A stretch of DNA of 20,475 nt, taken from Syntrophorhabdus sp. (GTDB lineage Bacteria; Desulfobacterota; BSN033; UBA1163). Shown here one piece after another: positions 2,083-17,977 of the stretch. Each line of letters begins with the position of its first letter. Positions within the stretch are counted from its first letter, which is position 1. A program made the position numbers and the translations under genes. The stretch is from positions 1 to 20,475 of the forward strand of contig DYHU01000034.1 of assembly GCA_020724025.1 (NCBI GenBank). Direction: 5' to 3'. The notes beneath the pieces are model-generated. The model saw only the letters and a list, made by a program, of their open reading frames with translations. It did no database searches and had not been told where the DNA came from.

Positions 2083-2117
2083 CTGCCTACTGCCTACTGC
2101 TTTCTGTCCTCTGTCTC
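2083..2117. repeat. heptamer array A (CTGCCTA-like, about 5 units)
   Basis: Consecutive 7-bp units begin at 2083, 2090, 2097, 2104 and 2111: CTGCCTA, CTGCCTA, CTGCTTT, CTGTCCT, CTGTCTC. CTG is kept at the same place in each, and a sixth start is visible at 2118. On the minus strand, the sense of the neighbouring genes, this reads as AGTAGGC-type repeats. The TAG stop of the DUF1786 gene (2096-2094) lies inside the array. Confidence 0.7.
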
Positions 2118-3140
2118 CTGGAATCTATAAAGGGCTGCTTTCACCAATCCCATGGGGCCGGTCATCATCGTATTTCCGCCGGGAGCGGCATAAGTAAATT
2201 GGAGGGATGTTTCCTTGAAAAGATCGCGGTTGGGGCCGGTGACCCGAACGGGTGCATCTCCAAGAAATGGAGTCAAGGTGATGACCCCATGGCCATTATC
2301 TTCATAGATCTCCTGTCTGTTCAATTCACCCCGGAAGAAGAGGCGGAGGTGATTCTCCAATTTCTCCGGAGTCAACTCATGGGTATGGTGTTCATAGAGT
2401 CCTTCGATCTTTCCATTGATCAGCAGGGCGGCAATGGTATGTCCGTTTCCGACATTGACGACCAGGGATGGCCCTTCTCTCTCGTCCATACATCCCAGAA
2501 TAGCAGAAAAAGAGGTATCCATCACCAGGATAGGTGATGAGGAGATTCTCCTCACTGCCTTCACGGCCGATTTCATCCGGAGATAACAGTCCGGGACCGA
2601 ACCTTCTATGAAGTGAAATGACTCTGGCCTGTTATCTTTTCGCAGCATCGCCTCCATCCGGTCGAAACGGAAAGTCCGGTCTGAGACCCCTTGGGGAGCC
2701 ACGCCGTGGTCCTGAACGGCTATGGCAATAACATCAAACTTAAAATCTTCTCCGAATTGGGTAAGGAAATGGCGAAGGAGGTCCAGATCGATCTCACGGA
2801 TCTCCAATTCATGAAAGTGGCCGGACGCTGGCTTCCCTCCCACTTCGATCCCCATTGATCTGACCTCATCTAAGTCATTTCGAATCGAATAGGCCGAAGA
2901 TTCGTCCATGGCCACCTGATAACCCTTCTTGAGGTGGCTGACAATGGCCCGTGTGAGCGATCCTCCTCCGATCGTGTCTCCATAGACATAGAGATCGCCT
3001 TCTATTTTTTTCAATCTTTCTGCAAGAATCCTCGAGGGGGTCGGCAGAACGAGACTGGTGCAATTTTCGATCTTTTTCTCCGAATCGAAAAGGAGAATAT
3101 CCTGTGTCCCCGCCCCAATATCAATCGCCAGTATTCTCAT
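2094..3140 (-). CDS. DUF1786 family protein
   Basis: A 348-residue protein beginning MRILAIDIGAGTQDILLFD. This is an actin/hexokinase-type phosphate-1 loop (D7-I-G-A-G-T-Q-D) characteristic of DUF1786, a family often labelled as a putative pyruvate-formate-lyase-activating protein without experimental support. Glycine-rich segments YGDTIGGGSLTRA, VVNVGNGHTIAALL and APGGNTMMTGPMG fit a further nucleotide-binding ASKHA fold. No radical-SAM CxxxCxxC motif is visible, so the activase name should not be taken literally. The final residues QETEDRKQ and the stop are encoded by heptamer array A, so the C-terminus has been extended or replaced by repeat sequence. A GGGAG lies only 2 nt from the ATG, so the start is slightly uncertain. 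Confidence 0.8.
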   Translation of the reverse strand: MRILAIDIGAGTQDILLFDSEKKIENCTSLVLPTPSRILAERLKKIEGDLYVYGDTIGGGSLTRAIVSHLKKGYQVAMDESSAYSIRNDLDEVRSMGIEVGGKPASGHFHELEIREIDLDLLRHFLTQFGEDFKFDVIAIAVQDHGVAPQGVSDRTFRFDRMEAMLRKDNRPESFHFIEGSVPDCYLRMKSAVKAVRRISSSPILVMDTSFSAILGCMDEREGPSLVVNVGNGHTIAALLINGKIEGLYEHHTHELTPEKLENHLRLFFRGELNRQEIYEDNGHGVITLTPFLGDAPVRVTGPNRDLFKETSLQFTYAAPGGNTMMTGPMGLVKAALYRFQETEDRKQ

Positions 3141-3169: not shown

Positions 3170-3266
3170 GACAGTCCCGAATCTACGATTTCCCCCGTAC
3201 TTGATACGGGGTCCGTCCGTAATTCTGGGACAGTCCCCCACTGCCTACTGTTTACTGATCACTATC
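3170..3266. repeat. GGGACAGTCCC repeat pair plus heptamer array B
   Basis: Between rtcB and the DUF1786 gene, two copies of the near-palindrome GGGACAGTCCC lie near 3170-3180 and 3227-3237. They flank a CCCCGTA...TACGGGG-type hairpin that resembles one inside the 5662-5757 repeat. Abutting them is heptamer array B (3239-3266): CACTGCC, TACTGTT, TACTGAT, CACTATC. The rtcB stop codon (3264-3262) lies in the last unit. Confidence 0.6.
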
Positions 3267-4716
3267 CCTTGATCACTCCCATCGGCACCAGTTTGACCAC
3301 CTTCAGACTGATGCCTGCATGGTGAACCACATTCACCACATCATTGACATCTTTATAGGCATCGGGAATCTCTTCCTCGATCGTCCCCCGGCTTGCTCCC
3401 TTCACGATGATCCCCTTATCCTCCATCTCCCTCACCACTGCCCTTCCCTTTGCCGCCTTGATGGCCTGATGGCGGCTCATCACCCTTCCTGCTCCGTGAC
3501 AGGTGGAGCCGAAGGTCTCTCTCATCGCCTTTTCCGTCCCGATCAAAACATAGGAACATCTGCCCATGTCGCCGGGGATGAGGATAGGCTGACCGATGGA
3601 TCGGTAATCTTCCGGGATATCCCGATGGTTTGGAGGAAAGGCTCTTGTCGCTCCCTTTCTGTGGATACAGAGCTTCTTCTTCTCTCCGTTAACCGTATGG
3701 GTTTCGATCTTGGCGATGTTGTGGCAGACATCATAGATCAAATCGAGCTTTAAATCCCTTGGGCTCTTCCGCAAAACCTGTTCAAAGGTCTCCCTTACCC
3801 AATGGGTGATTATCTGCCGGTTGGTAAAGGCGAAGTTGGCCGCACAGGCCATGGCCTCCAGATACTTTTCCCCTTCCGGGGAGGAGATTGGCGCACAGCA
3901 GAGCTGCGGATCCGGGAGTTCGATGTGATATTTCCTGGCAGCATCCATCATCAAACGGATGTAATCATCGCATACCTGGTGCCCCAACCCTCTTGAACCC
4001 GTGTGGACGAGGACGGTCACCTGATCCTTCCATAACCCCAATGTTCGGGCAATGGACTCATCGAAGACCTCGGCCACATATCCAATCTCAACGAAGTGAT
4101 TCCCGGAACCTAACGTCCCTAATTGCGCTCTTCCCCTCTCCATTGCCTTCTCGGAAACACGACCCGGATCAGCCCCTTCGATACAACCTAGTTCCTCGAT
4201 ATGTTCGATATCCTCTGCTGTTCCGAAACCCCTCTCAACCGCCCATTTTGCCCCTTTTCTGAAAACTTGCTTCTGCTCCTCTCTATTCAGCTTCAGATCC
4301 TTTCGATGGGAGCCTACACCCGAGGGGATGTTGATAAAGAGGGCTTCTACCAGTTCCCTCATTCGCCCTTCGATCTCCTTGCGGCTCAGACCTGAGCGCA
4401 TCAGTCTTACGCCTCAGTTGATATCGTATCCCACCCCTCCGGGAGAGACGATCCCATCATTCAAATCGAAGGCGGCCACACCGCCAATGGGAAAACCATA
4501 TCCCCAGTGGATATCCGGCATTGCCAGGGAATAACCGATAATGCCCGGAAGCCAGGCGACATTGGCTACCTGTGCCAGACTCTGGTCTTTTCGGATATCC
4601 CCGAACATCCGTTCATCGGCATAGACGATGCCATCCGTCCTCATCTTCCCCTCACGAGGAATTCTCCACCGATAATCATCGATCTTCTGAACTTTGATTT
4701 TCTCTTCTTCTGTCAT
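3262..4716 (-). CDS. rtcB: RNA-splicing ligase RtcB, apparent selenoprotein (Sec101 encoded by TGA 4416-4414)
   Basis: RtcB joins RNA 2',3'-cyclic phosphate (or 3'-phosphate) ends to 5'-OH ends using GTP and Mn2+. Two consecutive same-frame ORFs (4716-4414 and 4401-3262) form one 484-residue protein, close to the archaeal-type length, split only by TGA at codon 101. The frame reads [23 protein letters not shown], and family members carry cysteine at that place. By spacing, D98 and Sec101 match P. horikoshii D95 and C98. H207 (GNHF), H238 (VHTGSRG) and H332 (DVCHN) match its H203, H234 and H329, and H407 (CHGAGR) matches the guanylated H404. No active-site residue is lost, which argues against decay. 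A SECIS-like hairpin follows the TGA. TAGGAG lies 8 nt before the ATG. The gene is downstream of archease, its known activator. Confidence 0.93.
4380..4416 (-). promoter_or_regulatory. UGA codon with bacterial SECIS-like stem-loop in rtcB
   Basis: In the mRNA the UGA (4416-4414) is followed by 21 nt and then the apical loop. The stem pairs UGC (4400-4398) with GCA (4382-4380), leaves one bulged C (4383), then pairs GCUCA (4397-4393) with UGAGC (4388-4384) around GGUC (4392-4389). The loop with its closing pair is AGGUCU, which I recall as identical to the SelB-binding loop of E. coli fdhF. The distance is within the range reported for bacterial SECIS elements. The loop codons force Ser-Gly-Leu at a position where RtcB proteins usually have other residues. 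Confidence 0.85.
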
Positions 4717-4728
4717 GGGACTTACTCC

Positions 4729-4791
4729 TATCGTTCATCGTTCATTGTTCATCGTCTACCGTCCGTCGTCCATCGTTCATCGCTTATTGTG
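4729..4791. repeat. heptamer array C (CATCGTT-like, 9 units)
   Basis: Nine consecutive 7-bp units run between archease and rtcB: TATCGTT, CATCGTT, CATTGTT, CATCGTC, TACCGTC, CGTCGTC, CATCGTT, CATCGCT, TATTGTG. On the transcribed strand the consensus is (A/G)ACGATG. The array ends 5 bp from the archease stop and runs up to the rtcB ribosome site. It therefore sits in the rtcB 5' leader if the genes are co-transcribed. Confidence 0.85.
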
Positions 4792-4796
4792 ATCCA

Positions 4797-5261
4797 TTAA
4801 AGATCCAGAATGATCTGCGCCCTCCAGCCCCCGTTCTCTTTTTTTACCTGAATCTGATGGTGCGTCGCCGCCTTCACCCCAGTTTTGATCACATGGACCC
4901 CCTCCTCAAACGGCTCTCCCTTTACCTTTGCCTTCAATCCTCCTTCTCCGACAACCTCCACTTTAAAGCTCTTGAATAAAAGGTTCTCCACATCGTGGAG
5001 ATAGAGAAGTTCGTTCAACCAGTCGACCATCAGCCGCTCCAGGCTCTCTCGCTTAAGTTCGATCCGCCTCTCCTCTTTTTGCCTTACCCTCTTTAAATCG
5101 GTGATGAGATGAAAGAAAGCTTCGCCCGCATTCTCAAAAAGCGTCTGGAGATCCTCACCATACACAATCAACCCTATATCTGCCGTGTGGTCCAGGATTT
5201 CAAAACGCTTTCTTCCCTTTTTGGCCTTCAGTCCTCCTTCAGAAGACGAACCGCAGATCAC
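4797..5261 (-). CDS. archease, activator of RtcB
   Basis: A 154-residue protein with the archease signature FEILDHTADIGL (HTADIG at 25-30), the internal segment MVDWLNELLYLHD, and the C-terminal pattern HVIKTGVKAATHHQIQV...IILDL. Archease is a small metal-binding protein that promotes guanylylation and multiple turnover of RtcB, and the adjacent rtcB gene fits that role exactly. The annotated ATG overlaps the TGA of the thioesterase gene (ATGA, 4 bp). The family usually starts close to the F-E-I-L-D-H-T motif, so the first ~18 residues (with GGLKAKKG) may be an extension or untranslated. No better ATG lies between. Confidence 0.93.
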   Translation of the reverse strand: MICGSSSEGGLKAKKGRKRFEILDHTADIGLIVYGEDLQTLFENAGEAFFHLITDLKRVRQKEERRIELKRESLERLMVDWLNELLYLHDVENLLFKSFKVEVVGEGGLKAKVKGEPFEEGVHVIKTGVKAATHHQIQVKKENGGWRAQIILDL

Positions 5262-6691: not shown

Positions 6692-7246
6692 ATGGCCACG
6701 AAGAAGGTGGATGAAAAATCTTTTGGGGCAAAAATGAAACAACTCCGGCAACTCAGAAAGATCTCTTTCGAAACCCTTGCCAACAAAACCGGGCTTTCAC
6801 ACCGTTATCTCAGGGATATCGAAGAAGGAAAGATCATCCCCCCTGTAGCAGCGGTGATCCAGATTTCAAAAGCCCTATCGATCGATTCCGGCTCTTTTCT
6901 CTCGGCAGAAGAGCAGGAAGCTTCTGAAAAAAAGAGAAGAGAGAGCTTTTACAAAAGGACGCAGGCCTATTCCTATAAAACACTCACCCCTGATGCCGCT
7001 TCAAAGCATATGAAGGCCTTTCTCGTCACCATCGATCCACGACAGGACCATCGGATGGTGGAATATCGACATGAGGGGGAAGAATTTATCTATATCTTAA
7101 GGGGAGAAGTGGAGGTGAGGGTGGGCGAAAATCCAAATATTCTCAAAAAGGGAGAAACGCTTCACTTCGATTCTGGTATTCCGCATAAACTCCGGAATCT
7201 CAGCGGCGAAGAAGCAAAACTCCTTGTCATTCTCTATACACCTTAA
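6692..7246 (+). CDS. XRE-family HTH / cupin transcriptional regulator (copy 1)
   Basis: A 184-residue two-domain regulator. The N-terminal XRE helix-turn-helix (about 10-66) contains MKQLRQLRKISFETLANKTG and LRDIEEGKIIPPVAAVIQIS. A C-terminal cupin barrel (about 105-184) has YRHEGEEFIYILRGEVEVRV and GETLHFDSGIPHKLRN, which carry the two cupin metal- or ligand-site motifs. Such proteins usually sense a small carboxylate or CoA-pathway metabolite. A paralogue of the same length lies at 17423-17977, nearly identical in the cupin but different in the HTH. This copy stands alone on the plus strand between minus-strand genes, so it probably acts in trans. It is preceded by a good promoter and GGGAGG. 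Confidence 0.93.
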   Translation: MATKKVDEKSFGAKMKQLRQLRKISFETLANKTGLSHRYLRDIEEGKIIPPVAAVIQISKALSIDSGSFLSAEEQEASEKKRRESFYKRTQAYSYKTLTPDAASKHMKAFLVTIDPRQDHRMVEYRHEGEEFIYILRGEVEVRVGENPNILKKGETLHFDSGIPHKLRNLSGEEAKLLVILYTP

Positions 7247-17422: not shown

Positions 17423-17977
17423 ATGCCAACAAAAAGGATGGATGAAAAATCCTTCGGAGCTAAGATGAAACAGCTTCGCCAACTGAGAAAGATCTCCTTT
17501 GGACATTTTGCCAATATGACCGGATACTCACAGCGGTACTTAAAGGAGATTGAAGAAGGTAAGGTCATCCCTCCTGTGGCTGCCGTTATTCAGATCGCAA
17601 AGGCCCTTGCTGTCGATTCGGGTTCATTCCTCTCGGCCGAGGAGCAGCAAGCTTCGGAAAAAAGAAGAAGGGAAAGTTTTTACAAACGGACTCAGGCCTA
17701 CTCCTATAAAACGCTCACTCCGGATGCAGAGACGAAACATATGAAGGCCTTTCTTGTCACCATCGATCCACGGCAGGACCATCGGATGGTTGATTACCGT
17801 CATGAGGGGGAGGAATTCATCTATGTCTTAAAAGGAGAGGTGGAGGTGAGGGTGGGTGAAAATCAGAATCATCTCAAGAAAGGGGAAACCCTCCATTTCG
17901 ATTCAGGCATCCCCCATAAGCTTCGCAATCTCAGCGACGAGGAAGCCAAACTCCTGGTGGTGCTTTACACCCCGTAA
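17423..17977 (+). CDS. XRE-family HTH / cupin regulator (copy 2, paralogue of 6692-7246)
   Basis: A 184-residue protein with the same length and layout as the regulator at 6692 and roughly 85% identical by eye. The cupin half (from SFYKRTQAYSYKTLTPDA to LYTP) is almost unchanged. In the HTH, residues 27-42 differ strongly: copy 1 has ETLANKTGLSHRYLRD and this copy has GHFANMTGYSQRYLKE. This suggests the same ligand but a different operator. GAGGAG lies 8 nt before the ATG. A TATAAT (17383-17388) lies upstream but without a good -35, so it may be read from the preceding lyase gene. A heptamer array begins directly at its stop codon. Confidence 0.93.
   Translation: MPTKRMDEKSFGAKMKQLRQLRKISFGHFANMTGYSQRYLKEIEEGKVIPPVAAVIQIAKALAVDSGSFLSAEEQQASEKRRRESFYKRTQAYSYKTLTPDAETKHMKAFLVTIDPRQDHRMVDYRHEGEEFIYVLKGEVEVRVGENQNHLKKGETLHFDSGIPHKLRNLSDEEAKLLVVLYTP

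Follow-up and report, generated by a model that had tools for sequence, protein, structure and literature searches.

A stretch of DNA of 20,475 nucleotides from Syntrophorhabdus sp. (contig DYHU01000034.1 of assembly GCA_020724025.1), referred to here as the window, carries an intact archease–rtcB gene pair whose RtcB product we predict to be a selenoprotein, with selenocysteine (Sec) inserted at codon 101; we put the probability of this reading at roughly 0.93. At the level of sequence, the Sec reading is supported by the TGA at this codon, by homology to RtcB, by a hairpin that is conserved together with the TGA, and by the Sec machinery found in carrier genomes.

The codon for the metal-bridging cysteine of rtcB is a TGA in the window

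The rtcB gene lies on the minus strand (3262..4716), and its frame runs from 4716 to 3265, comprising 484 codons when read across the TGA, and is followed by a stop codon. As the sequence-only reading of this DNA had claimed, the frame has a single interruption, the TGA at 4416-4414, and alignment places it at the invariant Cys. This TGA, which is codon 101 (4414..4416, minus strand) and stands in the context GVGYDIN-TGA-GVRL, aligns with Cys98 of P. horikoshii RtcB (structure 1uc2; 4dwq has the identical sequence) and is the predicted site of the Sec that would replace the metal-bridging Cys. A plain list of open reading frames splits the gene into ORFs of 100 and 379 residues. Among the 120 database matches listed, the window gene and nine relatives are likewise entered as fragments of 379-382 residues beginning after the TGA.

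The RtcB profile (Pfam PF01139) matched residues 49-484 with 596 bits (cut-off 27), and the protein shows full-length homology to the solved RtcBs of P. horikoshii (1uc2/4dwq) and Thermus (2epg), whose structures span nearly the whole window protein; it shares with these enzymes the Asp and four His residues of the metal and guanylate sites and, like them, has an archease partner. The remaining active-site residues, which had been described as intact, are indeed so: D98, H207, H238, H332 and H407 correspond to P. horikoshii D95, H203, H234, H329 and H404 (offsets counted by hand on the alignment), and all five were invariant in 304 of the 304 RtcBs used to build the tree described below. The difference from the P. 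horikoshii and Thermus enzymes lies in the bridging ligand, which is encoded there by a Cys codon and here by TGA. Cys98 of RtcB binds both Mn ions, and Ala at the equivalent position abolishes ligation by the P. aerophilum, E. coli and human enzymes, as a review describes (PMC10630183). The Cys that binds both metals in an ordinary RtcB is thus missing from the window gene as literally translated; if the TGA encodes Sec, which is chemically analogous to Cys, the window protein would be an RtcB with a changed ligand.

The TGA recurs at the same codon in many bacterial genomes

We scanned 84,980 genomes, one per species, with a DNA pattern of the RtcB motif in which TGA replaced the Cys codon. 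The scan gave at least 118 matches in genome contigs, and 116 of the 118 matches listed were rtcB genes with TGA at codon 101, which puts the observation far beyond chance; the other two (L084 and L090) matched the pattern without aligning to RtcB. No match to the TGA pattern was found in viral contigs. The search of RtcB homologues for TGA at the bridging Cys, suggested earlier as a check, therefore found it to be widespread. By record title and NCBI name, the 116 listed carriers belong to Nitrospirota (40), Myxococcota (21, an unreliable label since many of the records are titled merely "Deltaproteobacteria"), Acidobacteriota (20), Thermodesulfobacteriota (16) and Pseudomonadota (4), with one each in three further phyla and 12 unresolved. 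Judging by their titles, the listed carriers come from metagenome assemblies or are uncultured or Candidatus organisms. The closest carriers among the matches listed (L048, L021, L079 and L114) encode proteins 90-92% identical to the window protein, and these relatives have both the TGA and the hairpin, in agreement with the expectation that both would be conserved nearby.

We fetched 208 loci, some of them cut by contig ends so that not every gene is whole, and 206 of these have a residue at codon 101, which is TGA in 147, TGC in 42 and TGT in 17. Once 23 duplicate or overly short TGA rows had been removed, 124 TGA and 59 Cys distinct sequences were left. Apart from codon 101, no stop interrupts the aligned part of any of the 124 TGA genes, and that of the 59 Cys genes has none at all. 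Even samples of three phyla contained RtcB in 191 of 247, 73 of 199 and 113 of 148 genomes; at least 24, 7 and 7 genomes, respectively, had a TGA-interrupted rtcB among the rows listed. The only other stops among the rows listed for these samples were three TAA rows from Nitrospirota, which we rejected as interrupted rtcB genes: in each, the TAA opens the match ahead of the start codon, and Cys occupies the catalytic position.

A hairpin accompanies the TGA

Folding predicts a SECIS-like hairpin after the TGA (4381..4399, minus strand), in which G15C16 pairs with G32C33, C31 is bulged, a GCUC/GAGC stem follows, and the loop is AGGUCU (4393-4388). The hairpin spans positions +15 to +33 relative to the TGA. 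The sequence-only reading had described a hairpin 21 nt after the TGA with an AGGUCU loop; the hairpin and its loop sequence were found as described, but the distance of 21 nt belongs to the start of the loop, and the 5′ arm begins 15 nt past the TGA, at 4399. We take AGGUCU to be the loop of the fdhF element. The predicted energy of -9.3 kcal/mol was reached by 0.45% of 2,000 sequences in which synonymous codons had been drawn at random for the same peptide (p = 0.0045). A search of Rfam around the window hairpin returned only three matches, all below threshold.

Three forms of the hairpin were found among the 124 TGA genes, seven of which fit none of them. The first, which includes the window's hairpin, has a short stem and a six-base loop (62 sequences, with AGGUCU in 30); the second has a short stem displaced by one base and a five-base loop (19 sequences); and the third, typical of Nitrospirota, has a long stem (36 sequences). 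A single rule covering the three forms, which is our own and distinct from bSECISearch, fitted 117 of 124 TGA genes versus 10 of 59 Cys genes (Fisher 8e-27, a value that ignores kinship), a count made partly circular by defining the classes on the TGA sequences themselves; the DNA of the Cys genes compared, 56-75% identical to the window, also lies farther from it than that of the nearest TGA genes. When displaced by one or two codons, the same rule fitted 5-18 of the 124 TGA genes. The mean folding energy, which depends on no such rule, was -9.7 kcal/mol for TGA genes versus -6.0 kcal/mol for Cys genes (p = 4e-9, kinship ignored).

Among the genes fetched from the Nitrospirota sample, where Sec and Cys forms have similar peptides after the site, the rule was passed by six of six Sec genes versus 4 of 24 Cys genes. 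The contrast also held in a tree control with 12 independent Sec/Cys pairs on supported branches: averaged over 200 pairings, the hairpin sided with Sec in 8.2 pairs and with Cys in 0.7, and did not distinguish the two in the remaining 3.1 (p values between 0.002 and 0.34, with a median of 0.02). A null model of synonymous codons applied to a 45-nt stretch separated the long class (mean z -3.90; 36 of 36) and did not separate the two short classes (mean z -0.17 and -0.51, with p 0.05 reached by 3 of 62 sequences in the one and 5 of 19 in the other). With the null narrowed to +13..+36, the short classes passed in 57 of 62 and 19 of 19 sequences, versus 15 of 59 Cys genes.

The arms of the hairpin also show compensatory changes, exchanging C-G for G-C and A-U for U-A between lineages. 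In the 19 sequences of the second form, C-G and G-C occupy pair 18-30 in 9 and 8 cases, respectively, and A-U and U-A occupy pair 19-29 in 10 and 9. The codon changes behind these swaps alter the encoded peptide (R-S-G-L-S, R-T-G-L-V, R-S-G-L-E), and the hairpin RNA therefore seems to shape the peptide that follows the site. The long-stem element seen in L004, L024, L062 and other Nitrospirota differs from the short AGGUCU type in having an unpaired A and an apical loop of 9 bases, and may reflect a different recognition by SelB.

Selenocysteine machinery in carrier genomes

Carrier genomes were compared with 14 control genomes for the components of Sec insertion. SelB scored over the cut-off in 28 of 30 carriers (the two exceptions being G016 and G026) versus 2 of 14 controls, SelA was found in 16 of 16 carriers versus 1 of 14 controls, and SelD scored over the cut-off in 15 of 16 carriers versus 2 of 14 controls. 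All 15 SelD-positive carriers have a copy of SelD with one in-frame TGA of its own, which we regard as a built-in sign that UGA is decoded as Sec in these genomes. With 98 candidates scored per genome, a tRNA-Sec exceeded the gathering score in 24 of 30 carriers versus 5 of 14 controls, and reached at least 60 bits in 20 of 30 carriers. The check for selA, selB, selC and selD that the sequence-only reading had proposed thus gave a divided answer: selA, selB and selD are present in most of the carriers tested, including the nearest listed ones, L048 and L021 (G001 and G002), but those two lack a strong tRNA-Sec (47 bits or less, 98 candidates scored per genome).

SelB is also common in relatives with a Cys RtcB, and its presence in carriers therefore adds little by itself. 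In one phylum sample, SelB was found in 23 of 24 TGA carriers versus 221 of 247 genomes overall, and in another in 7 of 7 TGA carriers versus 133 of 199 genomes overall. Most relatives encode SelB regardless, and we set its co-occurrence aside as a discriminating test. The genome of Candidatus Magnetobacterium casense (L029; G026) has a TGA-interrupted rtcB, yet neither SelB nor tRNA-Sec scored over the cut-offs there; either these genes are missing from the draft, or the system is divergent.

Exchange between predicted selenocysteine and cysteine

A FastTree phylogeny was built from an uneven sample of 304 RtcBs, 115 with Sec and 189 with Cys, excluding alignment columns 101-114. For this set, a minimum of 35 changes between Sec and Cys is needed, with no direction assigned to them, versus 79-102 changes in 200 shuffles of the labels. 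Clades composed only of Sec forms contain up to 16 sampled genes under a midpoint root. Outside columns 101-114, no column cleanly separates Sec from Cys RtcBs, and the signals seen there are weak ones computed with kinship ignored.

The nearest Cys proteins among the matches listed are 83-87% identical to the window protein, which means that Sec is not required, and several of them (P0001-P0004 and P0009) retain the R-S-G-L-S peptide. Some Cys genes have an intact hairpin (L136, L137, L139 and L140), and in others the hairpin looks decayed (L127, L128 and L132). Such relic hairpins in Cys genes suggest that Sec was lost to Cys. The repeated exchange suggests that Sec is advantageous in some settings without being a requirement.

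Gene neighborhood

The archease gene (Pfam PF01951, 153.9 bits) lies directly upstream of rtcB on the minus strand (4797..5261). Of the 86 TGA loci whose upstream sequence extends 1 kb or more, 79 have an archease, which in 77 lies within 400 nt of rtcB. Archease genes accompany rtcB often but not always. Archease activates P. horikoshii RtcB (PMC3973293), and this activation is reported for human RTCB as well (PMC10944509). The match-to-match spacing of archease and rtcB ranges from 37 to 297 nt across the nine closest listed relatives, and in the window the gap holds a tandem repeat of period 7 (4730-4782; ATCGTTC, 7.6 copies, 78% matches).

Downstream of rtcB, also on the minus strand, is a DUF1786 gene (2094..3140; Pfam PF08735). 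In eight of the nine closest listed loci, DUF1786 occurs on the same strand, 84-139 nt past the rtcB match, and the ninth gave no match. The Pfam description of DUF1786 reads putative pyruvate format-lyase activating enzyme. The four closest listed carriers (L048, L021, L079 and L114) retain archease, DUF1786 and a FlK thioesterase as neighbors. Elsewhere in the window are two regulators of 184 residues that are 86% identical to each other (6692-7246 and 17423-17977) and that we take to be of XRE-cupin type; the genes between them encode CoA-ligase subunits, an HMGL-like protein, a TctC + TctA transporter and PEP-mutase family proteins.

Discussion

We propose that SelB and Sec-tRNA would read the UGA at codon 101 of rtcB as selenocysteine, and that the hairpin starting 15 nt downstream would direct this insertion. 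The product would be a full RtcB with Sec as the ligand common to both metals, which archease would activate. In such an enzyme, expected to be a GTP-dependent ligase of 3′-P and 5′-OH RNA ends, the two Mn ions would be bound by a selenolate instead of the thiolate that Cys98 supplies in P. horikoshii.

Three explanations dispense with selenium. The TGA could be a real stop, making rtcB a pseudogene or the victim of a sequencing or assembly error, as the storage of the window gene and nine relatives as fragments of 379-382 residues, among the 120 database matches listed, might suggest. We consider this extremely improbable: the same codon is TGA in 116 listed stretches, the 124 distinct aligned parts contain no other stop, all 304 sequences of the tree share the metal ligands, and neither decay nor error can account for one fixed codon with a matching hairpin. 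Alternatively, the stop could be programmed and followed by re-initiation, yielding two products, one of 100 residues from the N-terminal part and one of 379 from the C-terminal part. The window does have an ATG five codons past the TGA, and ATG, GTG or TTG occurs there in 48 of 124 TGA genes, but none is found there in the other 76 of 124, the stop sits exactly on the catalytic residue, and the hairpin and Sec machinery would be left without a role; this is very unlikely. Finally, a suppressor or altered code could have UGA read as Trp or Cys without selenium. Insertion of Cys would restore the ordinary enzyme, and Sec systems can misinsert Cys under selenium shortage. The aligned parts contain no TGA at other codons, which makes a changed code unlikely, and the hairpin, SelA, SelB and the TGA-interrupted SelD all point to Sec, so we give this explanation hardly any weight.

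A different kind of alternative accepts that Sec is inserted and concerns only the purpose of selenium, so that its odds overlap those of Sec insertion: Sec could be a nearly neutral substitute for Cys that drift maintains, without functional gain, in anaerobes that use selenium. The tree with its 35 or more changes (shuffles, 79-102), the close Cys relatives and the relic hairpins of L136, L137, L139 and L140 fit such drift, as does the lack of any column outside 101-114 that cleanly separates the two forms. Against it, the hairpin constrains the codons past the site and accompanies different residues there, and Sec-only clades reach 16 sampled genes (midpoint root). On balance, we regard neutrality as unlikely, while taking it seriously.

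Selenium may alter the metal preference, redox behavior or rate of the enzyme, as the sequence-only reading proposed. A selenolate can be re-reduced after oxidation, and it differs from a thiolate both as a metal ligand and as an acid. Oxidation of the RtcB Cys is known: it was found oxidized in archaeal protein purified aerobically (PMC10630183), and in human RtcB it is vulnerable to metal-driven oxidative inactivation, from which PYROXD1 shields it (PMC12263435). Reversible oxidation is therefore our leading idea for the role of selenium, with ligand strength and selenol acidity as the others. Our tentative proposal, which we hold at somewhat less than even odds, is that selenium is useful because the active-site Cys is easily oxidized, and that Sec would keep the ligase working, or able to recover, in anaerobes exposed to oxidants or soft metals.

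Two known selenoproteins, formate dehydrogenase (Mo/W) and NiFeSe hydrogenase (Ni), also have Sec as a ligand of their catalytic metal (PMC13188914). Both catalyze redox reactions, whereas RtcB is a ligase of the nucleotidyl-transferring type whose ligand holds two metals. Methylated-DNA-protein-cysteine methyltransferase and SelD resemble RtcB in having Sec for a catalytic Cys in a non-oxidoreductase (PMC13188914, Table 1). Neither RtcB nor any other RNA ligase is among the 119 prokaryotic selenoprotein families in Table 1 of the inventory of May 2026 (PMC13188914), and RtcB is absent from the nine new families of deep-Sep in the available text of that report (PMC12013277). No Sec-RtcB model of NCBIfam 20.0 matched the window protein. 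The open literature on RtcB or RNA ligase and selenium, judged mainly by titles and abstracts and with some sources of the inventory outside its scope, yielded no natural Sec-RtcB, and none is described in the available portions of PMC4150793, PMC3973293 and PMC1586002. Sec-RtcB therefore appears to be an undescribed selenoprotein family, a variant of a known enzyme.

The earlier statement that no Sec-RtcB had been characterized accordingly holds for natural enzymes in the literature searched, but not for engineered ones, as a Sec98 form of P. horikoshii RtcB was made in 2014 (PMC4150793). That protein has Sec at the same residue, introduced through a UAG codon in E. coli, whereas the TGA and hairpin described here are natural and kept in many species. 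The engineered enzyme was cleaved near Sec (PMC4150793), so Sec at this residue can be harmful. In nature, P. horikoshii RtcB arises by protein splicing, and Cys98 sits at the splice junction (PMC4150793); natural Sec-RtcBs may therefore differ from it in this respect or may share the cleavage problem.

With TGA taken as a stop, such rtcB genes are stored in databases as truncated proteins, as is the case for ten of the 120 matches listed, the window's own included. If the prediction is true, the window's bacterium and many uncultured relatives possess a natural Sec-dependent RNA ligase. With natural Sec and Cys forms that are 83-87% identical, what Sec does in RtcB can be put to a direct test, as can the question whether selenium answers the known oxidation weakness of the Cys. 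It is conceivable, though we would not call it probable, that natural Sec-RtcB, its di-metal center held by a selenolate, is a redox-protected or redox-switchable RNA-repair ligase, repeatedly gained and lost among uncultured bacteria; it would then meet in bacteria the difficulty for which animals have PYROXD1.
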